DNA of 64,000 nucleotides, from positions 4,424,501-4,488,500 of the forward strand of contig NZ_JACHLY010000001.1 in assembly GCF_014204715.1 (NCBI RefSeq). Reading direction: 5' to 3'. Below, piece after piece: positions 24,806-38,547 of this stretch. Below the pieces are notes generated by a model, which was not told where the DNA came from, searched no databases, and was given only the letters and a program-made list of their open reading frames with translations. The translations under genes were made by a program, and so were the position numbers. The stretch's first letter is position 1, and each line of letters opens with the position of its first letter. The stretch comes from Streptomonospora salina. Lineage in GTDB: Bacteria; Actinomycetota; Actinomycetes; Streptosporangiales; Streptosporangiaceae.

Positions 24806-25411
24806 TCAGTTCAGCCATTCGGCGTGCGGGGCCCCTCCGAGGAGATCCGCGAGTCGCCGGTAGCGTCGGCGTGCTCCCCGGACGCCGGTCAGGCACCTGA
24901 TTGCGAACGCCAGGCACACGACGCAGCCGGCCCCGCCCATGGTCGCTCCCAGGTGCTCACCCTGGCCGATGAGGAAGTACGTTGCCACCCCCTCGAACAT
25001 AGCGAGCGCAAGAACGCCCAGCCCCCACCCAGGGCCGAACGGCTCGGTGGGAATCAGCAGCAGGGAAGCGGCTTCGTTGGCCCGGGGGTCGCGGCTGGGC
25101 TTTCCCTCCTTCAGCGCCCGCCCCGCAGTGCGGATGACCGAGGTGTAGACAGGGCGCTCCACGCCGGCGCCCTGCCGCCACATGAAGACGGTGATGTAGG
25201 CGAAAGACCCGCACATGAGCGCGAGAGTCGCGGCACCTGCCGATGAATCCCAGAGTGCCTGCGCGGCCGATGCGTGCGCCGTCTTCTCGTCTGCTCCGTG
25301 ACTCAGTACAGCGAGGGGCGCGAACACGAGGACAGCCACACCTGCGCTTGTCAGGAGCGGGTTGGCGCAGCAGAACAAGGCGAATCGCGCGCGGCGGAAG
25401 TGAGGGGACAC
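24806..25411 (-). CDS. Hypothetical multi-spanning membrane protein
   Basis: 201 aa from GTG 25411, chosen because GGTGGAGG lies 5 nt upstream; the frame is open to 25498. Hydrophobic helices are seen at about residues 12-35 (ANPLLTSAGVAVLVFAPLAV), 55-75 (AATLALMCGSFAYITVF), 120-145 (GWGLGVLALAMFEGVATYFL) and 150-170 (GAGCVVCLAFAIRCL), with an Arg-rich C-terminal tail. I do not recognise the family. It may be the first gene outside the mobile element or its last cargo gene. Confidence 0.65.
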   Translation of the reverse strand: MSPHFRRARFALFCCANPLLTSAGVAVLVFAPLAVLSHGADEKTAHASAAQALWDSSAGAATLALMCGSFAYITVFMWRQGAGVERPVYTSVIRTAGRALKEGKPSRDPRANEAASLLLIPTEPFGPGWGLGVLALAMFEGVATYFLIGQGEHLGATMGGAGCVVCLAFAIRCLTGVRGARRRYRRLADLLGGAPHAEWLN

Positions 25412-25550
25412 AGGAACCTCCACCAGGCTGAGGGGATGAACCAACCGTAGCGGCGCGGTCGGCCGACCCTGCGCGTGCATCTCCCGCCGGGAAACCATCG
25501 AGGGGCGGAGTGGATACTCGGCAACCGCAGCGAGTGGTCACCACGGCCCC

Positions 25551-25624
25551 GGTCCGAGGTGCTCGATCGCGCTGGAGCCAGGCCGTGAGACAGGCAGAGT
25601 CGCGCGATCGAGTGCCTCGGGACC
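25551..25624. repeat. Imperfect inverted repeat A in the hairpin block
   Basis: Arms 25551-25572 and 25602-25624 pair over about 22 bp, with one bulge and two mismatches; the core GATCGAG / CTCGATC with flanking GCGC is perfect. Loop about 29 nt. Confidence 0.6.
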
Positions 25625-25756
25625 GAGAACGCCGGAAACCCGAGTGCGGACGCTCAGAGCCGACTGTGGCGCGTCGCAGACCGACCGCCGAGCGACGGCG
25701 CGTCCCGAAGCGGCTGGATCGGCGACAGCCGACAGCAACCGAAGTCTGCCCGGCGC

Positions 25757-25809
25757 CCGGGTGGGTGCTGGAGACCGGGCGGCAGCCCGCAGCTCCAGCA
25801 CCCACCCGG
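25757..25809. repeat. Perfect 17-bp inverted repeat B with nested hairpin
   Basis: Arms 25757-25773 and 25793-25809 are perfectly complementary over 17 bp. The 19-nt loop itself contains CGGGC (25776-25780) paired with GCCCG (25785-25789). It lies about 80 bp past the kwaB stop and could terminate kwaB, but it has no T-run and belongs to a run of structures. Confidence 0.7.
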
Positions 25810-25820
25810 AAGCCGGCCAA

Positions 25821-25839
25821 GACGGCGCGAAGCGCCGTC
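25821..25839. repeat. 8-bp hairpin C with GAA loop
   Basis: GACGGCGC (25821-25828) and GCGCCGTC (25832-25839) around GAA. It follows repeat B by 11 bp and lies about 50 bp past the kwaB stop on the minus strand, so it may be the actual kwaB terminator. Confidence 0.5.
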
Positions 25840-25887
25840 GCCTTGATCCCATACAGCCCAATTCGGCAAGATGTGGAGGGAGATATT

Positions 25888-26772
25888 CTAGGACCGGCGT
25901 GCTTTGCGGCTAGCAGCGTACTGCTCTCCCGAAAAATCGCCCGTAAAAAGATCCTCATTTAAAAACTGGAGAACCTCATTTTGAGTTTCTTTTGTTATGG
26001 AGAGCGATCCGTTAGGCATCAGTCGGTCAGGGTCGAGATCGTGAGCCAGCATCCTCTCTCTGAGCGACTCCGGTGTCATGCTTTCCAAATGCTGTTTGGC
26101 TAGGATGCTCGTGACTTTGCGGCGGAGAGTGCTATTAGATCGGATGCGCTCTGAAAAAGATTCAATATCAGAATCTGCAATGGGAACGAACGTGGCGAGT
26201 TTGGAAACCCATTCATCGGTTTTTGCGAGAACCACGTCCGTGTCTTTGAAAAGGCGTTCAAAATTAGCCTGATTGAACGTCCATACTTTTTCGCTTGTTA
26301 TTACGACATCCCAGTATGAATCGAACTGAAATACGGGGCTCCGAACGCGCTTCAAGGAGTTTTCCAGGATTCCTACCAATTTTCCTGATAGCCTGATAGG
26401 GTTTCTGGCGCGCATGAAGATACTTCGATTCCTCGGATCGTTTCCGATTAGCAGAGCATAAAATGCAATATTCTTCTTTTCTACTTCTGTTGGGTTTGCA
26501 TCGGAAAGAGAGGATCCTTTTCGTAGGATTTTCATCACTTCCGTGTCTTGAAGCTCTTCGTGATTCAATGTCAAGTACTTCGATTCGCCCTGTTCGTCAT
26601 CGGGGTCATAAGCCTTGCCGGCTCCGGTGTCAATGATTTGAACACTCTTTTCGGCAGAGCGCCGCAATGCATCTTCGAAGTCGCTGCCAAATTGGATGGT
26701 GCGGCCGTGTACATGTTTCGGAGTGCGCCATGCAACGATGAGCGTAGCGTCACCCGAAGTATCAATCGTCAT
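25888..26772 (-). CDS. kwaB: KwaB-like DUF4868 protein of a Kiwa anti-phage system
   Basis: 294 aa. The pattern fits DUF4868/KwaB: an alpha/beta N-terminal half with ALLIGNDPRNRSIFMRARNP, a central FQFDSYWDVVITSEKVWTFN followed by QANFERLFKDTD, and the family-like end VLQFLNEDLFTGDFSGEQYA followed by a basic SRKARR tail. In the known system KwaB is the cytoplasmic effector that works with KwaA and acts on phage DNA. Base composition is far more AT-rich than the surrounding chromosome, with many AT-ending codons, indicating recent transfer. It follows kwaA by 47 bp on the same strand. The call rests on remembered family pattern, not a search. Confidence 0.72.
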   Translation of the reverse strand: MTIDTSGDATLIVAWRTPKHVHGRTIQFGSDFEDALRRSAEKSVQIIDTGAGKAYDPDDEQGESKYLTLNHEELQDTEVMKILRKGSSLSDANPTEVEKKNIAFYALLIGNDPRNRSIFMRARNPIRLSGKLVGILENSLKRVRSPVFQFDSYWDVVITSEKVWTFNQANFERLFKDTDVVLAKTDEWVSKLATFVPIADSDIESFSERIRSNSTLRRKVTSILAKQHLESMTPESLRERMLAHDLDPDRLMPNGSLSITKETQNEVLQFLNEDLFTGDFSGEQYAASRKARRS

Positions 26773-26819
26773 AGCTTAACTCGTTCTCAATGGATAGGTA
26801 GTATTTATGGTGACATTAT

Positions 26820-27359
26820 TTAATTCGTTCTTTCAATAAGTATCTCGTTTCCAAACTTAGTCGCTCGTATCACGTCTCCCGCAGACACTGTCCGCCGAGT
26901 TACAAGATAGCAAGACATGCCATTGATGTCATCTATAGCTATCACGTGGTAGCCCATGAGGTACAGAAGGGGATTAATTTGCACTAGGCTGGAACGAAGG
27001 TGCACGGATGCTGCGACGAGGAGAAAAAGTGCATAAGCTAGTAAGTCCAGTGCGCTTGGTTCTGATACGACCACAAATGGTAGCAAGTATGCAGCGAGAT
27101 ATGTTCCAGCTTCGGAGCCTGCTGAACGGGCGGAGGCTATTTCAAACGGACTGGGGGAATTTCCGCTATTCAGAAAGAAAAGAATGATTAGTCCGAGAGT
27201 GCCGCTTATGGATAAGCATATGCATCCTAGGGAGATATAACTAGTCGATAGAATGGCGAAGCTATATTGCGGTTCGCTTGTGTGGAATCGAATCGCAAGG
27301 AGTGCAAACAGTGGGGCATAAGAAGAAAGGAAGAGTATGAGCCTGGCGACTACGGGCAA
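26820..27359 (-). CDS. kwaA: KwaA-like four-helix membrane protein of a Kiwa system
   Basis: 179 aa from a TTG at 27359. Four hydrophobic helices are visible: about 6-24 (LILFLSSYAPLFALLAI), 40-61 (SYISLGCICLSISGTLGLII), 84-102 (AGTYLAAYLLPFVVV) and 105-122 (LDLLAYALFLLVAASVHL). A ~50-residue cytosolic C-terminal part begins YLMGYHVIAIDDINGMSCYL. KwaA is the inner-membrane component thought to sense phage infection. GGAGGAG lies 7 nt before the TTG, but is buried in a hairpin (see 27369-27419). No ATG or GTG alternative exists in frame upstream. AT-rich like kwaB. Confidence 0.7.
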   Translation of the reverse strand: MPVVARLILFLSSYAPLFALLAIRFHTSEPQYSFAILSTSYISLGCICLSISGTLGLIILFFLNSGNSPSPFEIASARSAGSEAGTYLAAYLLPFVVVSEPSALDLLAYALFLLVAASVHLRSSLVQINPLLYLMGYHVIAIDDINGMSCYLVTRRTVSAGDVIRATKFGNEILIERTN

Positions 27360-27391
27360 AGTGCATCTCCTCCGACTGTCGGGAACCTCAT
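27350..27391 (-). CDS. Possible 13-residue upstream open reading frame before kwaA
   Basis: An ATG at 27391, in the loop of the kwaA leader hairpin, opens a frame translating to MRFPTVGGDALCP and stopping at 27350, ten bases inside kwaA. Ribosomes reading it would melt the stem that hides the kwaA ribosome binding site. It lacks a Shine-Dalgarno of its own, so translation is unproven. Confidence 0.3.
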   Translation of the reverse strand: MRFPTVGGDALCP

Positions 27392-27419
27392 GGTACGACG
27401 AGGCAGTGACAGTCGGAGG
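27369..27419 (-). promoter_or_regulatory. 12-bp leader hairpin masking the kwaA ribosome binding site
   Basis: Arms 27369-27380 and 27408-27419 are perfectly complementary over 12 bp. On the mRNA strand the downstream arm reads GACAGTCGGAGG, so the whole GGAGG Shine-Dalgarno of kwaA is paired with CCTCC in the upstream arm. The 27-nt loop holds a second six-pair stem, CCUCGU with AUGAGG (one G-U pair). Such an arrangement would lower kwaA translation unless opened. A DNA operator is the alternative reading. Confidence 0.65.
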
Positions 27420-27503: not shown

Positions 27504-28043
27504 TTAAGCTTTTCTTGCTTCGATCTCCTGCAGTGCTCGGCTCCAGGGGAAGGAAGCGTGAGGTTCCGATCCGCTTCCCGGTTCGTGGGGAACGAAACCA
27601 TCATCGCAAATAAGGACTGAAGCCCCTTCTTCTCGTAGCTTTTGGACGCTTTCTCGGAATGGTTTCCTTGAGGCATATGCCGTATTCACATACGGAAGTA
27701 TGGTTGTCGGAACACCGAGTCCGATGCATTCGTTTGCAATGTCAAGTGCATAGGTATCAGCTATTCCGTTTGCGAGCTTATTAACGCTGTTGAAGCTGGC
27801 TGGGGCGATTATTATGGCATCCGCTCTTGGGCTGCGTGGTTGAGGAGAGGAACGGTGTTCGCTACGAACGGCGAGACCTGTCCGAGTCTCCAAGTCCGCG
27901 ATGTCGAGGAACGAAAGTGCTTTCGGAGTAGAGACGACTTGAACCGTCCATTCGTGCTCTTGAGCAATGTCGATTAGGTTCCAGACATCTCCGGCGGGGC
28001 CGGCGGCGCAGACGATGATGTAGAGGACCTTCTTGTCGCTCAT
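27504..28043 (-). CDS. Flavoprotein of the HFCD/CoaC (PPC decarboxylase-like) family
   Basis: 179 aa from ATG 28043. The Rossmann-like start KVLYIIVCAAGPAGDVWNL and the flavin site IIIAPASFNSVNKLANGIAD match the homo-oligomeric flavin-containing Cys decarboxylase fold, which includes CoaC, EpiD and Dfp. It lacks the CoaB half, so it is not the housekeeping Dfp. It overlaps the upstream XRE gene by ATGA, implying translational coupling. This pair is frequent in actinomycete accessory DNA as I recall; the job is unknown. GC content is intermediate between backbone and kwaAB. Confidence 0.8.
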   Translation of the reverse strand: MSDKKVLYIIVCAAGPAGDVWNLIDIAQEHEWTVQVVSTPKALSFLDIADLETRTGLAVRSEHRSSPQPRSPRADAIIIAPASFNSVNKLANGIADTYALDIANECIGLGVPTTILPYVNTAYASRKPFRESVQKLREEGASVLICDDGFVPHEPGSGSEPHASFPWSRALQEIEARKA

Positions 28044-29464
28044 CGGGTGAGGCCAACTCTTTCCGCGAGGTCGGTGATGTTGCCGCGCAGGTGTCCGGTG
28101 GCGCGGGTGCCGATGTCGTTGATCAGGGTGTGAACGGAGGGGCGGGCGCTGAGTTCTTCGCTGGCCAGGTTCTCCGCCGTGACCAGTGCCTCGAATGCTC
28201 GATCGAGCTTGCCCCACTGGCTGTACGCGCGGGCCGCGTCTACGAACAAGGTGACCTTGCGTTCGGTCACGTCGATGTTGTCCAGGCGGATCCGCCGCGC
28301 GTGGTCGATGGCGCTTCCCGCGTCTCCCATCTCGACGGCGGTGTTCACACGGTGGAGGAGCACGTTGGTGGGGCCGAACGCCGTCCACTGGTAGTTGTGA
28401 TCGCCGCCCAAGCGTCGGCCGGCCTCTTCCGCCTCGTCCAGAAGGGCGCGTGCCTGGCCGCGGTTCTCGCGTTTGGCCGCCGCGACGGCTCCGCTTAGCA
28501 GCAATGCGCCGTAGACCGAGACGGAATCCGCCGTCGGCTCCTCGGCCGTGGTGTCCACGCGTTCGGCCATCGTGGTCGCCAGTTCGGTCGCCGCGCCGTA
28601 ATGGCGGTCGGTCATCAATGCTCGGGTGACGATTCGTGCGCTGGCTCCGAGGGTGGCCGGGTTCTCGCTGTTCTCGGCCGCCTGCATACTCCGGTCGGCC
28701 GCAAGCCAGGCCAACCCGCGTTCGTCGGACTTCAGCAGGACGCTGGCCGCCACGTGGTACGCCTCGGCCCTGAGCGAGTGCGCGGTGAGGAGACTGTCAC
28801 CGTCGAACTGCCGTGTCGCCGCGTCCAGCCGGTTCAGCAGTGCCGGCAGTCGTCGGGCGACTTCGCCGTAGTGGCACGCCTGGTACCCGGCCTTGGCCGC
28901 GTGCACCGCCTTGGTGAGTGATGCGAGGTCGGGCGGGTGTGTCGGCTGGCCGGTCGCCGCTCCCGCATAGCGGGTGAGGGCGCTGGCGATGTCCTCCAGC
29001 CCGATCGCGGGGCCGGTGGCCGCCTCGAACAGGGCCGCCCCGGTCAGTCCGACGAATTCGCGACGCTTCACGCTCTCCTCCTGCTGCCCATCTGGTTCCA
29101 CGCTAGGCGGGGGAACGAGCGGGGCAGCGGCGGCGGTGGCGCTGCGGTGCTGGGTGAGGATCGTCAGGTCCAGTGGAGCCAGGCCGAACAGCATGCGCGC
29201 GGAGTCGGGCATGTTGAGCCCGTCGGCGATGCGCTCGATCACGTCGAGCGCCGTGATCTGCTTGCGTCCGTTCAGGATCTCGCTGACACGGCCCTGAGCG
29301 ATGCCCGTCGCCGCGGCAAGGCGAGTCTGACTCGCGCCTCCGTACCGCTGAGCCAAGCGCAGCAACCCGGCGATGTCGCGCTCCTGCAGCAGTCTCCGCG
29401 TGTCCTCCCGGCTCCATGCCCATGCGGGGATGTCGATCGGATCAAGTGCTCGTCCGGGCGGCAT
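28040..29464 (-). CDS. XRE-family regulator with TPR-like C-terminal domain
   Basis: 474 aa. After a 35-residue N-terminus there is a Cro/C1 helix-turn-helix: SQTRLAAATGIAQGRVSEIL, then NGRKQITALDVIERIADGLN. The remaining ~350 residues are helical and TPR-like (LAWLAADRSMQAAENSENPA, AVAAKRENRGQARALLDEAE), as in regulators that sense peptides or small signals. Stop and the flavoprotein start overlap as ATGA. A palindrome at 29505-29521 coincides with a -10-like GATAAT upstream, suggesting autoregulation. ATG 29464 has GAGAGG upstream. Confidence 0.85.
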   Translation of the reverse strand: MPPGRALDPIDIPAWAWSREDTRRLLQERDIAGLLRLAQRYGGASQTRLAAATGIAQGRVSEILNGRKQITALDVIERIADGLNMPDSARMLFGLAPLDLTILTQHRSATAAAAPLVPPPSVEPDGQQEESVKRREFVGLTGAALFEAATGPAIGLEDIASALTRYAGAATGQPTHPPDLASLTKAVHAAKAGYQACHYGEVARRLPALLNRLDAATRQFDGDSLLTAHSLRAEAYHVAASVLLKSDERGLAWLAADRSMQAAENSENPATLGASARIVTRALMTDRHYGAATELATTMAERVDTTAEEPTADSVSVYGALLLSGAVAAAKRENRGQARALLDEAEEAGRRLGGDHNYQWTAFGPTNVLLHRVNTAVEMGDAGSAIDHARRIRLDNIDVTERKVTLFVDAARAYSQWGKLDRAFEALVTAENLASEELSARPSVHTLINDIGTRATGHLRGNITDLAERVGLTR

Positions 29465-29504
29465 CGCGGCCTCTCGATCACTCGCGTGGCTCGGCCACGG
29501 TCAT

Positions 29505-29521
29505 TATCCCCAGTTGGGATA
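29505..29521. promoter_or_regulatory. Candidate XRE operator over its own -10
   Basis: TATCCC-CAGTT-GGGATA, a perfect 6-bp-arm palindrome about 40 bp upstream of the XRE start. On the minus strand it overlaps the -10-like hexamer GATAAT. The divergent small gene at 29569 would also be affected. Confidence 0.5.
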
Positions 29522-29568
29522 GCCGGTGTGGATGGGTTTACGTGACCGCAACCGGAATCGTGACCGCC

Positions 29569-29754
29569 ATGGACGCGAAAGCGGGGACAACGTGCCACTC
29601 CTGCCGGGGCCTTGGCTGGCGCTGGGTGCGCTTCCGCCGGTCGACCCGGCCCGATGACATCGGACAACCGCAGGACGGCCGCACCCGTGAAGCGTGCTGG
29701 CACTGCGGTGGGACCGGAGAGCGGGCCATCATGTCGCAGGAGGGGGCGGCGTGA
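29569..29754 (+). CDS. Small zinc-finger-like protein with two CxxCxGxG motifs
   Basis: 61 aa from ATG 29569 (GTG 29542 possible). CHSCRGLGW and CWHCGGTGER are two copies of the CxxCxGxG motif of DnaJ-type zinc centres, separated by about 30 residues, so the protein probably folds round one Zn2+. Such mini-DnaJ-finger proteins occur in actinobacterial mobile elements. Its stop overlaps the next start by one base (TGATG). Confidence 0.65.
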   Translation: MDAKAGTTCHSCRGLGWRWVRFRRSTRPDDIGQPQDGRTREACWHCGGTGERAIMSQEGAA

Positions 29755-30044
29755 TGGCCTATCGCAACCTCGCCTATGAACTGGCCGTGCTGAACGGGCT
29801 TCGGGTCCGTTTGGAATGGCACGGTCTGGACGCCGTCCTCATCGAGAGTGTCACCGGGCTTCGGGTGAGCGTGCCCGGTGCCGATGAGGCCGTCTGGATC
29901 ACCGCCGACAGCCGTGGCCGAGTACTCCTCTGGAACGGTGACTTCCTGCTCTCCTCGGCGTGGGCGTCCGCCGACGAGGCGCCGGAGATCGCGCGGGCCG
30001 CTCGCGCTTACCTCCCGTCCGAGAGGGCGCGGATTGATGGGTGA
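29754..30044 (+). CDS. Hypothetical AICE cargo protein
   Basis: 96 aa, starting MAYRNLAYELAVLNGLRVRL. Predicted alpha/beta without membrane segments; the family is not recognised. It is tightly packed between two other small genes (1-nt overlap upstream, 8-nt overlap downstream), which supports it as a real member of a three-gene operon. Confidence 0.65.
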   Translation: MAYRNLAYELAVLNGLRVRLEWHGLDAVLIESVTGLRVSVPGADEAVWITADSRGRVLLWNGDFLLSSAWASADEAPEIARAARAYLPSERARIDG

Positions 30045-30255
30045 CCTCGGGGCCGAGATCGGACGCATACGGGACCTGATTGAACAGGAGTTGCGGCGCG
30101 AGTTCCCCATGTGCGACTTCTGCCAGTTGCCTCGGGGCTGGTGGGCCGCGTGGCACGGGGAGCTGCGTGTGATGGCGCCCAACGCCAAGGCGCTGCGCCG
30201 GGAGCTGTCCGTCGTGCTGCGGCAGCACCACTGCCCAGGAGAAAACCGCCTATAG
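30037..30255 (+). CDS. Small hypothetical protein
   Basis: 72 aa from ATG 30037, overlapping the previous gene by 8 nt. A helical N-terminus (GAEIGRIRDLIEQELRREFP) leads into MCDFCQLPRGWWAAWHGELR, with a CxxC pair and one later Cys (QHHCPG) that could bind a metal. Not recognised. Confidence 0.6.
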   Translation: MGDLGAEIGRIRDLIEQELRREFPMCDFCQLPRGWWAAWHGELRVMAPNAKALRRELSVVLRQHHCPGENRL

Positions 30256-30260
30256 GGCTG

Positions 30261-30293
30261 TCAACTACAGATTCAGTTGTTAACCTGAGTTGA
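30261..30293. promoter_or_regulatory. AT-rich repeat cluster before gntR, candidate operator/promoter
   Basis: TCAACT at 30261 and AGTTGA at 30288 form inverted arms; a further AGTTG lies at 30275. TGATAG at 30291-30296 resembles a -10 placed about 15 bp before ATG 30311. It probably holds the gntR promoter and may be its autoregulatory site. Confidence 0.35.
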
Positions 30294-30310
30294 TAGAGCA
30301 CCTGAGAACT

Positions 30311-31057
30311 ATGGGACGGTACCGGATGGCAGCCAACGGCGGCGAGCGCAAGTATGAGCGAGTGGCGCGGACGCTGCGCGAACGCATCACCTCCGGTACC
30401 TACCAACCGGGGGACTCGCTTCCCTCCGAGGGGCGATTGGCGAGCGAGTTCGGCGTCTCTCGTCCGACCGTGATCAGCGCTCTCGACCTGCTCCGCGAAG
30501 AGGGCCTGATCTTCACGCAGACGGGATCCGGCTCCTACGTCCGGGGCAAGACGCCCAGGGCAGCCGAAGAGCGCGCGCGTCCGGGGCTCGAACTCCTGGA
30601 AGGCGCCGAGGACGCGCAGGCGGCGGAGCTGCTGCAAGCCGGGATCGTCGTCGCCCCTGAGCACGTGGCGAACCTGCTGGAGCTGGAGCGGCCGGCCAAG
30701 GCGTTCCTGCGGCAGTACGTCCTTCAGGAGGAGGACGGCCCCAACGAGCTGGTCTCGGCCTGGTTCCCGCTTGACCTGGCCGCCGGTACCCGCTTCAGCT
30801 CCCCGGACCCCCTGGGATCCAGCATCCGCCGTCACCTGCTGGAGCGGAAGAAAGTCCGGATCGACCACGCGGTTGAGCGCATCATCGCGCGTCCCGCGTC
30901 GTCGGACGAGGCATCGGCGCTGTCCATTCAGACCGGCTCACCGGTGCTGAACGTCGTGGTCACGGGCCACGACGCTGATGGTCGCGCGCTCCAGCTCATC
31001 GACGCCGTTCTTCCTGGTGACCGCCACGAGCTGCGCGACGTGTATCCGCTCGACTGA
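30311..31057 (+). CDS. GntR-family repressor (KorSA-like) with UTRA domain
   Basis: 248 aa from ATG 30311; a TTG at 30290 is possible. The winged helix is evident in KYERVARTLRERITSGTYQP, GDSLPSEGRLASEFGVSRPT and ISALDLLREEGLIFTQTGSG. The rest fits a UTRA effector domain (RQYVLQEEDGPNELVSAWFP, ERIIARPASSDEA, PVLNVVVTG). In pSAM2-type elements a GntR protein (KorSA) represses pra and thereby replication and excision. Two matching palindromes flank the next promoter, consistent with that role. Confidence 0.85.
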   Translation: MGRYRMAANGGERKYERVARTLRERITSGTYQPGDSLPSEGRLASEFGVSRPTVISALDLLREEGLIFTQTGSGSYVRGKTPRAAEERARPGLELLEGAEDAQAAELLQAGIVVAPEHVANLLELERPAKAFLRQYVLQEEDGPNELVSAWFPLDLAAGTRFSSPDPLGSSIRRHLLERKKVRIDHAVERIIARPASSDEASALSIQTGSPVLNVVVTGHDADGRALQLIDAVLPGDRHELRDVYPLD

Positions 31058-31085
31058 TCCTGTCAGAATCTTCGCTGATTCGGAG

Positions 31086-31114
31086 TTGACCTATCAGGTT
31101 GGCGCGACTACAGT
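31086..31114 (+). promoter_or_regulatory. Promoter of the pra operon
   Basis: -35 TTGACC (31086-31091), 17-bp spacer, -10 TACAGT (31109-31114). It is the best promoter match seen in the accessory region, about 65 bp upstream of the pra start. Confidence 0.65.
31089..31099. promoter_or_regulatory. Operator 1, ACCT-N3-AGGT palindrome
   Basis: ACCTATCAGGT overlaps the end of the -35 box of the pra promoter. It is the reverse complement of operator 2, 35 bp away. Likely binding site of the GntR repressor. Confidence 0.6.
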
Positions 31115-31123
31115 CGCAGCATG

Positions 31124-31134
31124 ACCTGATAGGT
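31124..31134. promoter_or_regulatory. Operator 2, ACCT-N3-AGGT palindrome
   Basis: ACCTGATAGGT lies just past the expected transcription start of the pra promoter. A weaker related sequence (TCTGATAGTT) occurs at about 31156. Two sites bracketing the promoter suit cooperative repression. Confidence 0.6.
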
Positions 31135-31178
31135 CAGATCTTGTTTCAATGTATGTCTGATAGTTCATGAGGTGGATG

Positions 31179-31616
31179 ATGGCGATTCAGGGTGCGCTGC
31201 CGGTGGAGTTCGGGACGGTGTTCCCGCACGGCGCCTACGCGCTCGGAGTGGAAGCGATCACCGACTTCGAGACCAAGCGTCCGCAGATGGACAAGAACAC
31301 GGGCCTGCCGCTGTGGGCGGTGGATGTGATCGACGCCGATCCGGAAGCCCGCGGCAAGGCCAAGAGCGTGAAGGTGAAGGTGGCCGCCGAGCACTGCCCG
31401 ACCCTGCCCGACGAGGTGCCCGGCCTGCCCTTCCGGCCCGTCGAGTTCGAGCAGATGTCCGTCATGCCCTACGTCGACGACTCCGGCCGCCGCCCGCGCG
31501 TGGCCTATTCGCTGCGCGCGCGTGGGGTGAAGACGCCCGGCGGCGGTGGCTCGCGCAAGGCTCCCGCCGGTGCCGCCTCCGGTGCCGGTAGCTCCGGCGG
31601 CAAGGACGCGGGCTGA
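31179..31616 (+). CDS. pra: Plasmid replication, integration and excision activator (Pra-like)
   Basis: 145 aa from ATG 31179, chosen because GAGG lies 6 nt upstream and the family begins MAIQG. Conserved blocks are MAIQGALPVEFGTVFPHGAY, MDKNTGLPLWAVDVIDADPE, LPGLPFRPVEFE and GRRPRVAYSLRARG. In pSAM2, Pra activates rep, xis and int, switching the element from integrated to replicating state. The C-terminus is a Gly/Ser/Ala-rich tail. A 9-bp-arm hairpin at 31637-31672 follows, possibly attenuating read-through to the tra-int operon. Confidence 0.85.
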   Translation: MAIQGALPVEFGTVFPHGAYALGVEAITDFETKRPQMDKNTGLPLWAVDVIDADPEARGKAKSVKVKVAAEHCPTLPDEVPGLPFRPVEFEQMSVMPYVDDSGRRPRVAYSLRARGVKTPGGGGSRKAPAGAASGAGSSGGKDAG

Positions 31617-31636
31617 GAAGTCCGCTGAACGCAAGC

Positions 31637-31672
31637 GGGGCGGCCTGGTGCGCCAACACCTTCGGCCGCCCC
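31637..31672 (+). terminator. Hairpin between pra and the tra-int operon
   Basis: GGGGCGGCC (31637-31645) pairs with GGCCGCCCC (31664-31672), followed by TTC. A partial terminator or attenuator is plausible, as the downstream genes have no obvious promoter of their own. Confidence 0.4.
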
Positions 31673-31724
31673 TTCAACCCTCCTGCGAGACCTGCGAAAT
31701 CTCTGGAAGAGGTGTCTCTTCAGT

Positions 31725-31976
31725 ATGTCCGATCCGTCAACGCGGGTCAGCCCGCGCGAGATCGCCGAGTTTATGGACGCCCTGCGCGCCCACCGCAACG
31801 CCGCCTTCAACGGCTCCGGGCCACGTCCGGATGCGGCGCTGCTGGCGTGGAAGTCCAGCATCCTCGGCCGCATCGCCGACCAGACCGACGATGCCGAAAC
31901 CCGCGCCGTGGCCGACGAGGCTCGCGCCGAACTGGCCGCACTCCGCGCCGACGACGAGAGCGGGGGTGGTCGGTGA
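31725..31976 (+). CDS. Small AICE protein of unknown function
   Basis: 83 aa, beginning MSDPSTRVSPREIAEFMDAL, helical and charged. Homologues of this size usually lie before the tra gene in such elements; no function is known to me. Its GAGG ribosome binding site sits in a 6-bp hairpin (31706-31721, GAAGAG / CTCTTC) and is 12 nt from the ATG, so translation initiation may be weak or controlled. The stop overlaps the tra start by one base. Confidence 0.7.
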   Translation: MSDPSTRVSPREIAEFMDALRAHRNAAFNGSGPRPDAALLAWKSSILGRIADQTDDAETRAVADEARAELAALRADDESGGGR

Positions 31977-33394
31977 TGCTGGGACGCAAGAGCGCCGGAG
32001 CAACGCAGGTGCAACCGACCGCGCCGGTACCGGCGCAGACCATCCGCTTCTCGGCTCCGGTAGTCGAGACGCCGGGCATCGTCGTCGTGGCGGGCTTCCT
32101 CTGGCGCCTAGTGCGGCTCCTCGTTCTGCTGCCGCTCCGCTTCCCCGTGGCCGTCGCAACTGCGGGCGCCTCTGCGCTGCTGGCGTACCTCGTCGGCTGG
32201 CTGGGGCTGGCCGCGGCCTGGACGCTCGCCGACGTGGCTCTGTTGGTCTGGTGGCGCCGGTGGCCGAAGTCGTTCAAGACTCGCCTTGCGCGTCGGGCGC
32301 TGGCCGCCTGGCGGTGGCTGTGGGTCTACCGGCGCCACTGGCAACCCGTCCTCGTCGTCTCCGGCCTGGCCGAGTCCTACCTGGAACGGCAGTACCTTCC
32401 GCAGATCCGCGGGGTGACCTGCTCGGCGTGGGCCGACCGGGTGCGGGTGCGCCTGGTTGCCGGTACCGCCCCGGCCGACTTCGAGAACCGTGTGGCGGAG
32501 CTGGCGCACGGTTTCGGCGCTCCCTCTTGCCGTGTGGAGGTGCGCGGGCCGCGTGATGTGGTGTTGGAGTTCCCGCGCCGGGACACCCTCGCCGATCCGA
32601 TCGAGGCGCTACCGGTGCCTGAGGATCCGGATCTGTCGGGGCTGCCGGTGGGCCGGTGCGAGGACGGCGAACCGTGGTATCTGCGGCTGCACGGCACGCA
32701 CGTGCTCACGGTCGGGGTGACCGGCGCGGGCAAGGGTTCGGTGCTGTGGTCGGCCATCCGCGCCATGACTGCGGCCATCCACGCGGGCACGGTGCAGGTG
32801 TGGGCGATCGATCCCAAGCGGATGGAACTCTCCTTCGGACGCCCGCTGTTCGCCCGATACGCCGATGCGGCCGAAGACGCCGTGGACCTCCTGGAATCGG
32901 CGGTTGCGGCGATGCAGGAGCGCGCCGAGCGCTACGCGGGGCGCCAACGCGTGCACGTGCCCAGCACGCGGGATCCGTTCGTGGTGGTGGTGCTGGACGA
33001 GGTGGCGTTCCTGACCGCCTACCACCCTGAGCGCGACATCCGCCGGCGGGCGGAGAACGCGATAGCGACGCTGACCAGTCAGGGCCGGTCGGTCGGGTTC
33101 TGCGTGCTGGCCGCGCTGCAGGATCCGCGCAAGGAGGTGCTGAACCTGCGCAACCTCTTTCCCGACAAGGTGGCTCTGCGCCTGGACGAGGCGTCGCAGG
33201 TGGACATGGTGCTCGGGGAGGGCGCGCGCGATCGGGGCGCCAACGCCCACCTGCTCGATCCGGACCTTCCCGGTGTGGCGTTCGTGAAGCTGGAGGGCTC
33301 GCCGGTTCCGGTGCGGGTGCGGGCCGCGTTCGTTTCCGATGCCGACATCGACGCCATGGCCGCTGAACCGGCCGCTGCGGGGGTGGGCGACTGA
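31976..33394 (+). CDS. FtsK/SpoIIIE-type DNA translocase (TraSA-like)
   Basis: 472 aa from ATG 31976. Two or three N-terminal membrane helices (PGIVVVAGFLWRLVRLLVLL, ATAGASALLAYLVGWLGLAA) are followed by a motor domain with Walker A VGVTGAGKGSVLW and Walker B PFVVVVLDEVAFLTAY. Such proteins move double-stranded plasmid DNA between mycelia in actinomycete conjugation, forming a hexameric pore without relaxase processing. Start and stop each overlap neighbours by one base, placing it in the tra-rep-xis-int operon. Confidence 0.9.
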   Translation: MLGRKSAGATQVQPTAPVPAQTIRFSAPVVETPGIVVVAGFLWRLVRLLVLLPLRFPVAVATAGASALLAYLVGWLGLAAAWTLADVALLVWWRRWPKSFKTRLARRALAAWRWLWVYRRHWQPVLVVSGLAESYLERQYLPQIRGVTCSAWADRVRVRLVAGTAPADFENRVAELAHGFGAPSCRVEVRGPRDVVLEFPRRDTLADPIEALPVPEDPDLSGLPVGRCEDGEPWYLRLHGTHVLTVGVTGAGKGSVLWSAIRAMTAAIHAGTVQVWAIDPKRMELSFGRPLFARYADAAEDAVDLLESAVAAMQERAERYAGRQRVHVPSTRDPFVVVVLDEVAFLTAYHPERDIRRRAENAIATLTSQGRSVGFCVLAALQDPRKEVLNLRNLFPDKVALRLDEASQVDMVLGEGARDRGANAHLLDPDLPGVAFVKLEGSPVPVRVRAAFVSDADIDAMAAEPAAAGVGD

Positions 33395-35070
33395 TGCCGA
33401 CCCCGACCGGTAAGAGCACGCGGGCCGAGCGGCAAGCGCAACCGCTGGCGCGTGAGGTGGCCGAGCAGATCGCCGCCGACAAGGGTGTGTGTATCCGGCC
33501 CGTGTCGCTGCGCCGCACCGACATCACCACGGGCCGAACCGAGATCGTGGATGTGCCGTGCAACTCCACATTGGAATCTCGGTGCCCGGCGTGTGCCAAG
33601 CGCAAGCGCTCCATCCGACGCACGCAGTGTGAAGAGGGCTGGCACCTGGTCGAGGAACCGACCGTGACGCCGGAGGAGCCGTCCGATGTTCAGCGGGCGT
33701 GGGTGGAGCGCCGCGCCGTGGTCACCGCACAACGTGACGCGCTGGTGGAGGCAGGCGGGGCCAATCCGGACGAGGTGGCCGCACTGGATCAGGCCATCGC
33801 CGATTTGGACACCGAGATCACCGCGTCCGGCATGCGCGGGTCGGTGTCGCGGGGCTCCTCGTCGGCGACGTCTCGGCGGGTGCGCTCGACCAAGCGGCGC
33901 CAGGACGCGCCGGACCTGCCCAAGCGGCAGATGGCCAAGACCACCCTCGGCCGCACCTACGAGGATCCCGCGACCGGCAGGACCTTCCGGCCGTCGCTGT
34001 TCCTCACGCTGACCTGCGACACCTACGGGCGGGTGCGCTCCGACGGGACGCCGGTGGATCCCTCGACGTATGACTACCGGCGGGCGGCTCGGGATGCGCT
34101 GCACTTCTCCAAGTTGGTGGATCGCTTCGTGCAGAACCTGCGCCGCGTGGCCGGGTTCGATGTCCAGTACTTCGCGACCGTGGAGCCGCAGCGCCGGTTG
34201 GCGCCGCATCTGCACATGGCGACGAGGGGCACCATTCCGCGTGCGGAGCTGCGGCAGATCGCGGCGGCCACCTATCACCAGGTGTGGTGGCCTGCGGCCG
34301 ACGAGGCGGTCTATGCGGGGGAGTCTCTGCCGGTCTTCGACGAGGCGACCGGGAACTACGTGGATCCGGTCACGGGTGAGGTGCTGCCGACCTGGGGTGA
34401 GGCGCTGGACGCGCTCGATGCCGATCCGAACGCCGAACCGATGCACGTCGTCCGGTTCGGGCCGCAGGTCGACGCGAAGGGCGTGGTGGCCGGCACCGAG
34501 GACGCCGACCGGTGCGTGCGCTACCTGGCGAAGTACCTCACCAAGGACATCGCCGAATGCCACGCCGTGGAGACCGACGCGCAGGCGCGCCACGTAGAAC
34601 GCCTCGTGGAAGCGCTGCGGTTCGAACCCTGCTCGCCGCGCTGCGCGAACTGGCTCCGCTATGGCGTGCAACCGGACGGGGCCAAGGCGGGGATGCGTCC
34701 TGGCTTCTGCCGCTCCAAAGCACACCGGCGCGAACACCTCGGCTACGCCGGGCGGCGGGTTCTGGTCTCGCGCAAGTGGTCGGGCAAGACCGTGGCCGAT
34801 CACAAGGCGGACCGGCTGCGCTGGGTCCTCGACGCCTTGGGCGTGGATCCCGACGCCGACCCCGACGAGGGCCAGGGCGACAACGCCGCTCCCGCGCTCG
34901 CCTCGGTCTCCTCCGGCGATCACGCCTGGGAGCTGGCACGGCCGACCGATCCCGACGTCCCGCCCCGCGAACACCGCCTCCTGCGCGCGGTCGGCGAAGC
35001 GCTCAAACGCCGCGCCCAGCTCGACCACGCACGGGAAACCGATCTTTCGGCAACGGGGAAGGCGGCGTGA
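33394..35070 (+). CDS. Rolling-circle replication initiator (RepSA-like)
   Basis: 558 aa. A Cys cluster (CPACAKRKRSIRRTQC) near residue 65 is a likely zinc site. Rolling-circle Rep motifs follow: SLFLTLTCDTYGRV (motif I), HLHMATRGTIPR (HxH metal motif II), and RCVRYLAKYLTKDI, with the Tyr/Lys pattern of the catalytic motif III. In AICEs, RepSA-type proteins replicate the excised circle. The frame overlaps tra and xis by one base each. Confidence 0.88.
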   Translation: MPTPTGKSTRAERQAQPLAREVAEQIAADKGVCIRPVSLRRTDITTGRTEIVDVPCNSTLESRCPACAKRKRSIRRTQCEEGWHLVEEPTVTPEEPSDVQRAWVERRAVVTAQRDALVEAGGANPDEVAALDQAIADLDTEITASGMRGSVSRGSSSATSRRVRSTKRRQDAPDLPKRQMAKTTLGRTYEDPATGRTFRPSLFLTLTCDTYGRVRSDGTPVDPSTYDYRRAARDALHFSKLVDRFVQNLRRVAGFDVQYFATVEPQRRLAPHLHMATRGTIPRAELRQIAAATYHQVWWPAADEAVYAGESLPVFDEATGNYVDPVTGEVLPTWGEALDALDADPNAEPMHVVRFGPQVDAKGVVAGTEDADRCVRYLAKYLTKDIAECHAVETDAQARHVERLVEALRFEPCSPRCANWLRYGVQPDGAKAGMRPGFCRSKAHRREHLGYAGRRVLVSRKWSGKTVADHKADRLRWVLDALGVDPDADPDEGQGDNAAPALASVSSGDHAWELARPTDPDVPPREHRLLRAVGEALKRRAQLDHARETDLSATGKAA

Positions 35071-35294
35071 TGGCCGGTAAGAGTTCTCGTCCCTCGGGTC
35101 GGCTGCTGACCGTGGCGCAGGCGGCCGAACGGCTCAACACCAGTGAGCGCTACCCGCGCCGCCTGATCGAGGAGCGGCGCATCACCTTCGTCAAGCTCGG
35201 CCGCCACGTCCGTATCCCGGAATCGGCGCTGGACGAGTTCATCGCGGCCGGAGTCGTGGAGCCGGTCAAGCTCGGACTGAGGAGGGCCGCGTAA
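35070..35294 (+). CDS. xis: Excisionase (MerR-like helix-turn-helix)
   Basis: 74 aa from ATG 35070, overlapping the rep stop (TGATG). The core LLTVAQAAERLNTSERYPRR followed by IEERRITFVKLGRHVRIPES is the winged-helix excisionase (Xis) family that bends att DNA and favours Int-mediated excision. The stop overlaps the int start (TAATG). Confidence 0.88.
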   Translation: MAGKSSRPSGRLLTVAQAAERLNTSERYPRRLIEERRITFVKLGRHVRIPESALDEFIAAGVVEPVKLGLRRAA

Positions 35295-36496
35295 TGGCGG
35301 GCGGTAAGAAGCGATCTTTCGGCAACGTGCGCCAACTGGCGTCGGGGCGGTTCCAGGCACGCTACCGGGGGCCGGACGGCCGTCTCCGGAACGCGTCGAT
35401 GACGTTCGCGACCAAGAAGGCGGCGGAGCGCTGGCTGACGCTCAAAGAGGCCGAGATCGTCCAGGGCGAGTGGTTCGACCCCGATGCCGGGTCGGTCCAC
35501 TTCGCCGAGTACGCCGAGCAGTGGGTGGAGGAACGGGACCTGGCGCCGCGCTCGGCGGACCTCTACCGGAGTCTCCTCCGACTCCACCTGAACCCGACGT
35601 TCGGGGACATCCTGGTGAAGGACATCAAGGAGTCGCATGTCCGCGCGTGGCGGTCCTCGCGCCGCAAGTCCAAGGTGGGAAAGTCCACCGTGGCCAAGGC
35701 GTACCGGCTCCTGCGGGCCGTCATGAACACGGCCGTCCGGGACAAGCTGATCCGTGAGAACCCGTGCCAGCTTGAGGGCGCGGGCCAGGAGGAGAGTGAG
35801 GAGCGCCCGGCCCTGTCCGTGGCCGAGGTGTACAAGCTCGCCGACGCCGTTCCGCCGCGCTACCGGGCGCTCGTGCTCCTGGCCGCGTTCGGCAGTCTGC
35901 GATGGGGTGAGGCGGTCGGGCTCCGCCGGCGGTTCCTCGACCTCGACGCGCGCACGGTCACCGTGCGTGAGGTCGCCTACGAACTCGGGGGAGTGCGGTT
36001 CGGGCCGCCCAAGTCCAAGGCGAGCCGCCGCACGGTGCAGTTGCCCGGCCTGATCGCGGACGACCTCCGGGCGCACCTGGACGCCTTCGCCAACCCCGGA
36101 CCGGACGGTCTGGTCTTCGTGGGGGAGCGGGGGAACCCTCTTCGGCGCGCGAACTTCTCGCAGTACTGGCAGCGGGCGCGGGCCTCCACGGGGCTGCCGG
36201 GCGTGCGCTTCCACGATCTTCGGCACGCGGGCAACACCTTCGCCGCCGAAGCGGGGGCCTCGCTGCGGGAACTCATGACCAGGATGGGCCACTCCAGTAC
36301 GCGGGCGGCGCTGATCTACCTGCACGCACGCGACGACCGTGCCCGCGAGTTGGCGGACAGCCTCGGCGAGCGGGCCGCGCGCGAACTGGCCGCCTCCACC
36401 GAGTTCGAAGATCGGCCTGACGAGGATCCCGGCGAGACCGACGAGGACGGTCCGGGCTCCCCGACCTCCGACGGATCCGGCGGTCCCGGCCGCTGA
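35294..36496 (+). CDS. int: Tyrosine-recombinase integrase
   Basis: 400 aa. An N-terminal arm/core-binding domain (to ~165; FAEYAEQWVEERDLAPRSAD) leads into the catalytic domain with the R-H-R-H-Y set: Arg203 (SLRWGEAVGLRR), His307 and Arg310 (FHDLRHAGNTFA), His333 (RMGHSSTRAALIYLHA) and the nucleophile Tyr342. All key residues are present, so it should be active. The C-terminus is acidic and Pro/Gly-rich. It is the last gene of the backbone operon and faces the tRNA-Gly attachment site. Confidence 0.95.
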   Translation: MAGGKKRSFGNVRQLASGRFQARYRGPDGRLRNASMTFATKKAAERWLTLKEAEIVQGEWFDPDAGSVHFAEYAEQWVEERDLAPRSADLYRSLLRLHLNPTFGDILVKDIKESHVRAWRSSRRKSKVGKSTVAKAYRLLRAVMNTAVRDKLIRENPCQLEGAGQEESEERPALSVAEVYKLADAVPPRYRALVLLAAFGSLRWGEAVGLRRRFLDLDARTVTVREVAYELGGVRFGPPKSKASRRTVQLPGLIADDLRAHLDAFANPGPDGLVFVGERGNPLRRANFSQYWQRARASTGLPGVRFHDLRHAGNTFAAEAGASLRELMTRMGHSSTRAALIYLHARDDRARELADSLGERAARELAASTEFEDRPDEDPGETDEDGPGSPTSDGSGGPGR

Positions 36497-36510
36497 GGGC
36501 CGATCACCGC

Positions 36511-36530
36511 TGTGGCACGTGTGTGGCACG
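36511..36530. repeat. Direct repeat TGTGGCACG x2, candidate integrase arm sites
   Basis: TGTGGCACG occurs at 36511-36519 and 36522-36530, 11 bp apart (about one helical turn), between int and the tRNA-Gly gene, where arm-type Int binding sites of attP would be expected. Confidence 0.5.
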
Positions 36531-36558
36531 GCGACCGCGCAAGCACTCTCTACGACCG

Positions 36559-36597
36559 AGGGCCAGGCCCGCCGGGTGTCCCGGCCGACCTGGCCCT
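36559..36597. terminator. Nested hairpin after int
   Basis: Outer arms AGGGCCAGG (36559-36567) and CCTGGCCCT (36589-36597), with an inner stem GCCGGG / CCCGGC at 36571-36585. Probably terminates the AICE operon and isolates tRNA-Gly, transcribed from the other side. Confidence 0.55.
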
Positions 36598-36605
36598 TCG
36601 GCTTA

Positions 36606-36679
36606 TGGAGCGGGCGACGGGAATCGAACCCGCATGGCCAGCTTGGAAGGCTGGAGTTCTACCATTGAACTACGCCCGC
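36606..36679 (-). tRNA. tRNA-Gly (anticodon UCC), CCA encoded; AICE attachment site
   Basis: Read on the minus strand it starts GCGGGCGTAGTTCAATGG and ends with a CGCCCGC acceptor arm, discriminator T and encoded CCA. The anticodon loop CTTCCAA gives UCC. T-loop GGTTCGATTCC is canonical. The 3' half faces the integrase gene, so recombination probably occurs in this half and the gene is reconstituted at the right junction. Confidence 0.95.
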
Positions 36680-36797
36680 ATGGCGTCAGCGCCCCGGAGT
36701 TTCCTCTAGACTCGTGAAGCCGACGGAGACCAGACTACAGTCTTCGCAGCGCGGGTTGTGCCAGTTTTTTCTCGGACGGCACCCGGCGCGAGGTTCA

Positions 36798-36872
36798 CGG
36801 GGAGTAGCGCAGCTTGGTTAGCGCGCATGCTTTGGGAGCATGAGGCCGCGGGTTCGAATCCCGCCTCCCCGA
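36798..36872 (+). tRNA. tRNA-Pro (anticodon UGG)
   Basis: CGGGGAG acceptor arm pairs with CTCCCCG at the 3' end; D-arm GCGCAGCTTGGTTAGCGC; anticodon loop TTTGGGA in stem CATGC/GCATG gives UGG; T-arm GCGGGTTCGAATCCCGC. No CCA is encoded. It lies about 230 bp upstream of tig. Confidence 0.95.
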
Positions 36873-37101
36873 CGACAAGACTCGTGGCGCCGGGCGTGTG
36901 CCGTGTTCGCCGTGAGGGGCCCTCTGACTGCCCTAGACTTGGCACGATCAGCAGGAAAACGTCAAAGCCAGTCCCAGGCCCCGCAGCTCGGTGCCACCGC
37001 CTGCGCCGGCCTGCCGGTACGTCAGTCCGGTGGTCGGGGAGAGTGCGCCCTGCGTGCCGGGTCGTCCCGGAAAACTGCCGGAAATCTAGGAGTACCGCCC
37101 C

Positions 37102-38547
37102 GTGAAGACCGATGTCGAGGAGCTCAGCCCGACCCGGGTCAAGCTGACCGTCGAGGTTCCGTTCGAGGAACTTGAGCATGCCTTCGACGTGACCTACAAG
37201 TCGCTCGCCAAGCAGGTGCGCATCAAGGGCTTCCGCCCTGGGAAGGCGCCCGCTCGGCTGATCGATCGGCACGTCGGGCGCGGAGCGGTGATCAGCGAAG
37301 CGGTGAACCACGCCGTCCCGGAGCTGTACAACGAGGCCATCCAGAAGGAGGAGATCTTCGCGCTCGGCCAGCCCGACGTGGAGGTCACCAAGCTGGAGGA
37401 CAACGAGGAGCTCGCCTTCACGGCCGAGGTCGACGTCCGGCCCAAGTTCGAGGTGCCCGACTACGAGGGCATGCAGGTCACGGCCGATGACGCCGAGGCC
37501 ACCGAGGACCAGGTCGAGGAGCAGGTCGGCAACCTGCGCGAGCGGTTCTCCACCCTCGTCGGCGCCGGTCGGCCGGCCCAGCAGGGCGACCACGTCTCGA
37601 TCGACCTCTCCGCCGCCGTCGACGGCGAGCAGCTGGAGGACGTGCAGACCAGCGGCCTCTCCTACGAGGTGGGAACCAACACCATCCTCGAAGGCCTCGA
37701 CGACGCCATCGAGGGCCTGTCCGAAGGCGAGTCGACCACCTTCACCACGAACCTGGTGGGCGGCGAGCACGAGGGCCGCGAGGCCGATGTCACCGTCACG
37801 GTGCACAGCGTGAAGGTCAAGGAGCTGCCCGAGCTCGACGACGAGTTCGCGCAGATGGCCAGCGAGTTCGACACCATGGAGGAGCTGCGCGCCGACGTCC
37901 GCTCGCGCATGGCGCAGGTCCGCCGCATGCAGCAGCTCAACCAGGCGCGCGACCGCACCCTGGAGAAGCTCGTCGAGTCCGTCGACGCTCCGCTTCCCGA
38001 CTCCGTGGTCGAGGAGGAGGTCGGCCGCCGTCGCCAGAGCCTGGAGCAGCAGCTCTCCCAGAGCGGGCTGACGAAGGAGTCCTACCTGGAGTCCCAGGGC
38101 CAGTCCGAGGAGGAGTTCGAGGAGGAGCTCAAGCAGGGCGCCACCTCGGCGGTCAAGGCCGGGTTCATCCTGGACCAGATCGCCATCGACGAGGAGCTCT
38201 CCGCCGGCAACGACGAGCTGACCCAGTACGTCGTGGAGCAGGCCCAGCAGATGGGCGTGTCGCCCGACCAGCTCGCCAACCACCTCGTCGAGTCGAACCA
38301 GATCCAGACGGCCTACACCGAGGTCGTGCGCGCCAAGGCGCTGGACCTGGTGATGGAGAAGGCCACCGTCACCGACGAGTCGGGCAACGTGGTCGAGAAG
38401 GAGAGCGCCGACGAGGCCGGTGGCGCCGAGGCCGCCGTCGACGCCGAGGCCGCCGCCGCGGAGGGGGCCGAGGAGCTGGAGGCCGAGGCCGACAGCCCCG
38501 AGGTCCGCGACTCCGCCGAGAGCGGTGCCGAGGCCGGGCGCTCGTAG
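37102..38547 (+). CDS. tig: Trigger factor
   Basis: 481 aa from GTG 37102, with AGGAG 9 nt upstream. The ribosome-bound chaperone and prolyl isomerase has an N-terminal ribosome-binding domain with the signature VRIKGFRPGKAPARLIDRH, a central FKBP-like domain (QQGDHVSIDLSAAVDGEQLE, GLSYEVGTNTILEGLDDAIE) and a helical C-terminal domain. The Ala/Glu-rich C-terminal extension (from ~430) is common in actinobacteria. It precedes the clpP genes, as usual. Confidence 0.96.
   Translation: MKTDVEELSPTRVKLTVEVPFEELEHAFDVTYKSLAKQVRIKGFRPGKAPARLIDRHVGRGAVISEAVNHAVPELYNEAIQKEEIFALGQPDVEVTKLEDNEELAFTAEVDVRPKFEVPDYEGMQVTADDAEATEDQVEEQVGNLRERFSTLVGAGRPAQQGDHVSIDLSAAVDGEQLEDVQTSGLSYEVGTNTILEGLDDAIEGLSEGESTTFTTNLVGGEHEGREADVTVTVHSVKVKELPELDDEFAQMASEFDTMEELRADVRSRMAQVRRMQQLNQARDRTLEKLVESVDAPLPDSVVEEEVGRRRQSLEQQLSQSGLTKESYLESQGQSEEEFEEELKQGATSAVKAGFILDQIAIDEELSAGNDELTQYVVEQAQQMGVSPDQLANHLVESNQIQTAYTEVVRAKALDLVMEKATVTDESGNVVEKESADEAGGAEAAVDAEAAAAEGAEELEAEADSPEVRDSAESGAEAGRS

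Follow-up and report, generated by a model that had tools for sequence, protein, structure and literature searches.

Does the stretch at positions 25888-27359 of the Streptomonospora salina DNA analysed here (the window, 64,000 nt, whose coordinates are used throughout) encode a Kiwa anti-phage system, what carries it, and how could it work in a cell with one membrane? An earlier note, made from the sequence alone, had read a kwaA-kwaB operon there, brought in by an actinomycete integrative and conjugative element (AICE). The analysis indicated that 25888-27359 holds a complete, diverged KwaA-KwaB pair that is likely to protect its actinomycete host against phages; a probability of about 0.85 was assigned to this reading. 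Published statements are given as they stand in the available parts of the cited papers.

A diverged KwaA-KwaB pair

Two minus-strand genes, separated by 47 bp in the open reading frame (ORF) listing and with a second product of 294 aa, were found as described in the earlier note.

26820-27359, minus strand: kwaA, 179 aa, TTG start, four predicted membrane helices and a C-terminal beta domain
25888-26772, minus strand: kwaB, 294 aa, ATG start, DUF4868/KwaB protein
27369-27419, minus strand: inverted repeat in the leader; its two 12-bp arms, 27408-27419 and 27369-27380, match perfectly, and the one on the 3' side covers the kwaA Shine-Dalgarno sequence

Profile analysis showed that residues 135-237 of KwaB matched Pfam PF16162 (KwaB) with 38 bits (cut-off 26.3), which placed the proposed DUF4868-like region in the C-terminal half of the protein. 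The AlphaFold2 model of KwaA, obtained with a 36-row alignment, had a predicted local distance difference test (pLDDT) value of 86.6 and contained helices at 3-27 (interrupted at 14), 41-64, 81-97 and 103-122, followed by a C-terminal beta domain at 138-176. This agreed with the four-helix membrane protein with a tail that had been claimed; a plain hydropathy scan put three of the four helix segments above threshold. The models matched solved Kiwa structures (9mrx, 9mrg, 9mrr, 9mtn, 9nyu) over 178 of 179 residues for KwaA and 257 of 294 for KwaB. The solved systems also consist of two products, a four-helix KwaA with a beta domain and a DUF4868 KwaB; the window pair differs from them in sequence (20% identity for KwaA, 14% for KwaB), in its actinomycete host and in its place in an AICE exchange slot.

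A KwaB/DUF4868 protein was thus present, with a four-helix membrane KwaA encoded beside it in the order kwaA-kwaB, and both profiles and both predicted folds matched. The two outcomes that the earlier note had named as telling against Kiwa, a 294-aa protein without a DUF4868 profile match and a KwaA fold unlike the known one, were both examined and neither was found. The Kiwa assignment is right and ordinary in kind. Because both parts matched in profile and fold, the pair probably blocks phages, and by analogy anti-phage activity and DNA binding by KwaB are likely.

Several points weigh against this reading. Besides the low identity to the solved proteins, both products missed the NCBIfam equivalog cut-offs NF041622/NF041623 (60.7 of 100 and 22.3 of 200 bits), so that predicted folds and broader profiles place the pair in the family, and close orthology is not reached. 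KwaA had no Pfam family in the scan that gave the KwaB match, and a plain phmmer search of KwaB against PDB chains gave no match. The C-terminal 20 residues of KwaB were among the most conserved, yet had pLDDT below 50 in the model. Among the 41 nearest genomes searched, kwaB occurred in one, the window's own. Published accounts of the effector conflict, with DNA binding without cleavage in PMC12904381 and 'DNA degradation' in PMC12322248, and activity data for an actinobacterial Kiwa were not found in the literature as available.

Database searches at 1e-3 yielded 141 KwaB and 346 KwaA relatives. The nearest named ones came from Nocardiopsis dassonvillei (P0002/P0121; KwaB 63%, KwaA 54% identity), on contigs of equal length (27,055 bases), and those of N. 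quinghaiensis (locus L002) had 58% and 45% identity, respectively. These relatives differ from the window pair in belonging to other species, while L002 has the same order of GntR, XRE, flavoprotein, kwaA, kwaB and border element. The KwaB tree was used for one grouping only, since its L014 and L015 rows came from incorrect reading frames and L016 formed an extreme branch; the window protein grouped with Nocardiopsis P0002 and P0004 and with P0003 (Shimodaira-Hasegawa-like approximate likelihood ratio test 99, no bootstrap). KwaB was rare: of 396 genomes from the phylum, 7 had it (window genome included), and in 5 of these the score passed the Pfam cut-off. In one of 12 loci from named genomes, that of a metagenome-assembled actinobacterium (L013:5378-5957), KwaA homology was divided between two overlapping frames.

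Three claims of the earlier note were not upheld, of which the one on the envelope is taken up further below. Both genes were indeed more AT-rich than their surroundings (GC content 0.474 for kwaA, 0.480 for kwaB and 0.706 for the window), which had been taken as a sign of import. However, kwaAB GC lay under both flanks in 12 of 12 loci of named actinobacterial genomes (smaller difference 0.01 to 0.20); low GC therefore appears common for Kiwa in the phylum. A Gram-positive host is also no novelty, since active Gram-positive Kiwa has been published (PMC11514479, PMC12322248) and sources already label actinobacterial relatives 'Kiwa anti-phage protein KwaB-like'. The Kiwa of Streptococcus thermophilus 90730 likewise comprises two adjacent genes in a Gram-positive host and was active when tested; it differs in lying in the CR3 defence island and not in an AICE (PMC11514479). 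The main text of an actinobacterial defence survey contains no occurrence of Kiwa (PMC10482375).

An exchange slot in an AICE

The claim that an AICE carries the operon stood. A GntR regulator, an FtsK/SpoIIIE protein, a RepSA-type initiator and a tyrosine integrase, which together define such an element, lie in one element at 30290-36496 beside a tRNA-Gly gene.

28040-29464, minus strand: large XRE-type regulator of the AICE (HTH_31, 1.5e-8)
27504-28046, minus strand: flavoprotein gene at the proximal slot edge (PF02441), its 3' part differing along with the cargo
30290-31057, plus strand: GntR regulator (PF00392, PF07702), presumably KorSA-like
31712-33394, plus strand: FtsK/SpoIIIE transfer protein (PF01580), which we take to be TraSA/TraB-like
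33394-35070, plus strand: RepSA replication initiator (PF20199, 8.7e-99)
35294-36496, plus strand: tyrosine integrase (PF00589, 1.9e-17)
36606-36679, minus strand: tRNA-Gly (tcc), likely integration site (ARAGORN)
25519-25868, strand not assigned: block at the end of the element, with 95% identity to the same AICE in genome G400
25740-25869, minus strand: conserved two-hairpin border element at the end of the cargo slot (44-row alignment)

Comparison with five genomes of the same genus showed that G400 has the same AICE (93% identity over 27736-37558), G398 and G399 have related AICEs (about 80% identity), and G396 and G397 have none, their flanks lying 1.8 and 2.9 kb apart. A copy of the tRNA-Gly 3' end marked the far (left) AICE end in three of the five (G400, G398 and G399); within the window, no left copy was found. 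Most of the element-end block, 25540-25869, was 74% identical to a second AICE of the own genome. At the AICE left end, an ORF at 24806-25498 (minus strand) had no Pfam match and was absent from all 40 other relatives searched; a genome from a different genus, G485, has it again next to the border.

The second AICE of the own genome, at 0.30 Mb, was 98.3% identical over window 27715-35025, with a flavoprotein 3' part and cargo unlike those of the window; its cargo is followed by an ORF that we take to be transposase-like. In G400 the kwaAB position holds an NA37-domain protein, a RelA/SpoT-domain protein and a third ORF (L038:10072-12679, plus strand), a candidate defence operon. Homology to these two sister AICEs drops inside the flavoprotein gene, and in both of them and in L002 it returns, with TTGCCGAATTGGGCTGTATGGGATCAAGGCGACGGCGC or a sequence close to it, at window 25868-25869. 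Different cargo lies at one place in near-identical AICEs. In L124 the flavoprotein ORF ends exactly at the border point, apparently an empty slot. For movement of the kwaAB genes, the most likely route would be homologous recombination among AICEs, bounded on one side by the conserved XRE-flavoprotein region and on the other by the conserved two-hairpin border.

In P2 prophage hotspots and an E. coli element resembling integrative and conjugative elements, defence genes, PD-Lambda-5 among the systems described, also replace each other at one place (PMC9519451); the window slot differs in lying in an AICE and in having a structured non-coding border at its edge. The gene content of AICEs has been described (PMC3218068), their cargo is diverse and includes restriction and abortive systems and a flavoprotein (PMC9513070), and nucleases occur on AICEs near defence genes (PMC11706625). 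The exchange slot and its structured border deserve the closer attention; both their role in defence and their mechanism are put forward as proposals.

The two-hairpin border and its cargo

The border element lies 18 nt from the kwaB stop codon; it gave no Rfam match at E 1, and no name for it was found. With the border as query at 1e-3, 151 of 250 family genomes and 50 of 68 genera gave a match; no more than 3 candidates were scored per genome, and many of the matches extended over the 46-nt core only. Border loci were read at 44 places, 40 from the upper part of the match list (not strictly in order) together with the window, L038, L057 and L002. In a covariation analysis of the 43 distinct rows among 44, the 24 pairs had 96.1% of their cells paired, compared with 38-45% after sliding. 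Both-sided changes numbered 76, compared with 21.8 +/- 3.6 after shuffling, and fell in 10 of the 24 counted pairs. G-T (8) and A-C (11) exceptions were about equally rare, a pattern that speaks for a DNA hairpin more than for RNA. Model R1, built from the alignment rows, found L039 and L040 outside the alignment (112.5 and 118.7 bits) and three more copies in the window's own genome, making 6 in all (117-124 bits). A single-strand origin (sti) is described for the rolling-circle plasmid pIJ101 (PMC4170104).

The GC content of the 500 nt before the border fell into two groups, at most 0.512 in 23 of 44 loci and at least 0.57 in 21. In 20 of the 22 AT-rich slots besides the window, a cargo ORF extended to the border, stopping no more than 92 nt away or slightly overlapping it, and forward-strand cargo stopped 4-8 nt before the border in 8 of 10 cases. 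There were 25 AT-rich slots including L139 and L140 of the own genome; L116 (no ORF of at least 90 aa) and L131 (larger ORF product identical to that of L119) were dropped, and the 23 different ones were read. The match counts that follow are raw, without a matched control, and not every ORF of each slot was scanned singly.

Near full-length defence matches were found in 6 of the 23 slots: Kiwa in the window and in L002 (the latter by profiles built here), HEC-04 (672.7 bits), PD-Lambda-5 A and B in the own genome (365.8 and 327.9 bits), an NsnB-like protein (177.6 bits) and PDC-S58 (89.8 bits). Two slots had domain-level matches, to RelA/SpoT PDC-S33 (27.9 bits) and to an OLD/AriA-type ATPase (76 bits). 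Thirteen slots gave no PADLOC match at 1e-4, and L105 and L119 matched by a helix-turn-helix (HTH) domain only, so that 15 of 23 had no match or HTH only. Pfam analysis of a batch of 37 cargo ORFs revealed ApeA, Schlafen AlbA_2, D12 methyltransferase and RelA/SpoT domains, as well as aminotransferase, NUDIX and sulfatase-modifying domains.

Six slots belong to the own genome: three with a Kiwa, PD-Lambda-5 or OLD-type gene, one AT-rich without a name, one with a transposase-like ORF and one GC-rich. The PD-Lambda-5 A/B pair (L101:2517-4912, minus strand) occupies another border slot near 2.446 Mb, and the 579-aa ATPase gene (L140:3245-4984, plus strand), near 2.57 Mb, ends 43 nt before the border. 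AT-rich genes touching the border and encoding 361-494 aa lie at L095:3685-4995, L103:2625-3947, L113:3891-5027, L120:2599-4083, L105:3712-4971 and L139:2575-3660; without a PADLOC match at 1e-4, they are candidates for unnamed defence genes. A wider proposal, tentative and a little short of even odds, is that AICEs of this actinobacterial family have a plug-in defence slot with a far edge set by the two-hairpin DNA element. That element would work as DNA, perhaps as single-strand origin of the rolling-circle AICE, and serve as a swap arm; the many unnamed AT-rich genes touching it would belong to undiscovered defence systems, with Kiwa as one interchangeable cassette.

Alternatives and mode of action

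The pair could instead be a decaying or silent AICE passenger that gives no defence in this host. Many pseudogenes occur among AICE cargo in a survey (PMC9513070), the left attachment copy was not found within the window, and kwaA has a TTG start with its Shine-Dalgarno sequence buried in the 12-bp hairpin; the leader fold has a z-score of -3.4, an inverted repeat this long occurred in 1 of 1000 resampled leaders, and no hairpin over the Shine-Dalgarno sequence was seen in 12 other Kiwa leaders examined. However, both frames are open at full length, alignments containing the two window proteins have 27 invariant columns for KwaB and 28 for KwaA, and the GGAGGA motif is well spaced, 8 nt 5' of the TTG. 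A decaying or silent passenger is considered unlikely. Still less probable is a Kiwa-derived pair that serves the AICE and not the cell, blocking competing AICEs or plasmids by binding entering DNA; the AICE carries the pair in a type of slot found several times in this genome, but tested Kiwa acts on phages (PMC11514479). An unrelated membrane protein adjoining an unrelated DUF4868-like protein by chance, as the low identities, missed NCBIfam cut-offs and lack of a KwaA Pfam family might suggest, is very improbable given profile and fold matches for KwaA and KwaB alike at a single locus, KwaA homology directly upstream of KwaB in 12 of 12 loci in the scan of named genomes, and correlated KwaA and KwaB distances (r 0.82, 13 gene pairs, 0 of 10000 permutations).

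For a phage-protective pair, the published system offers a mechanism: KwaA forms inner-membrane tetramers that bind KwaB dimers, KwaA's way of sensing infection being unknown, and KwaB binds entering DNA and halts replication and late transcription without cleavage (PMC12904381). Since the folds of KwaA and KwaB match, this layout is likely in the window pair too. KwaA tetramers in the cytoplasmic membrane would hold KwaB dimers and the complex would respond to phage entry at the membrane; KwaB would then bind the incoming DNA, and replication and late transcription would fail with the DNA uncut.

The earlier note had linked KwaA divergence to the different envelope. This was not supported: identity is 20%, yet the predicted fold agrees with the known one over 178 residues and shows no additional domain outside the membrane, apart from a TM1-TM2 (first to second transmembrane helix) loop that exceeds the loop of 34 of 35 relatives by about 12 residues and is modelled with low confidence. 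The model has two short loops (near 28-40 and 98-102) on the side opposite the tail; if the C-terminal domain faces the cytosol, the part outside would amount to only about 18 residues. With so few, sensing of the bilayer itself is a likelier guess than sensing of a wall or outer-membrane ligand, and would let one design serve a one-membrane cell. A diverged pair of this kind could separate bilayer sensing from envelope-ligand sensing, and the border element may provide a sequence handle for defence discovery, an AT-rich gene touching the border being a candidate.
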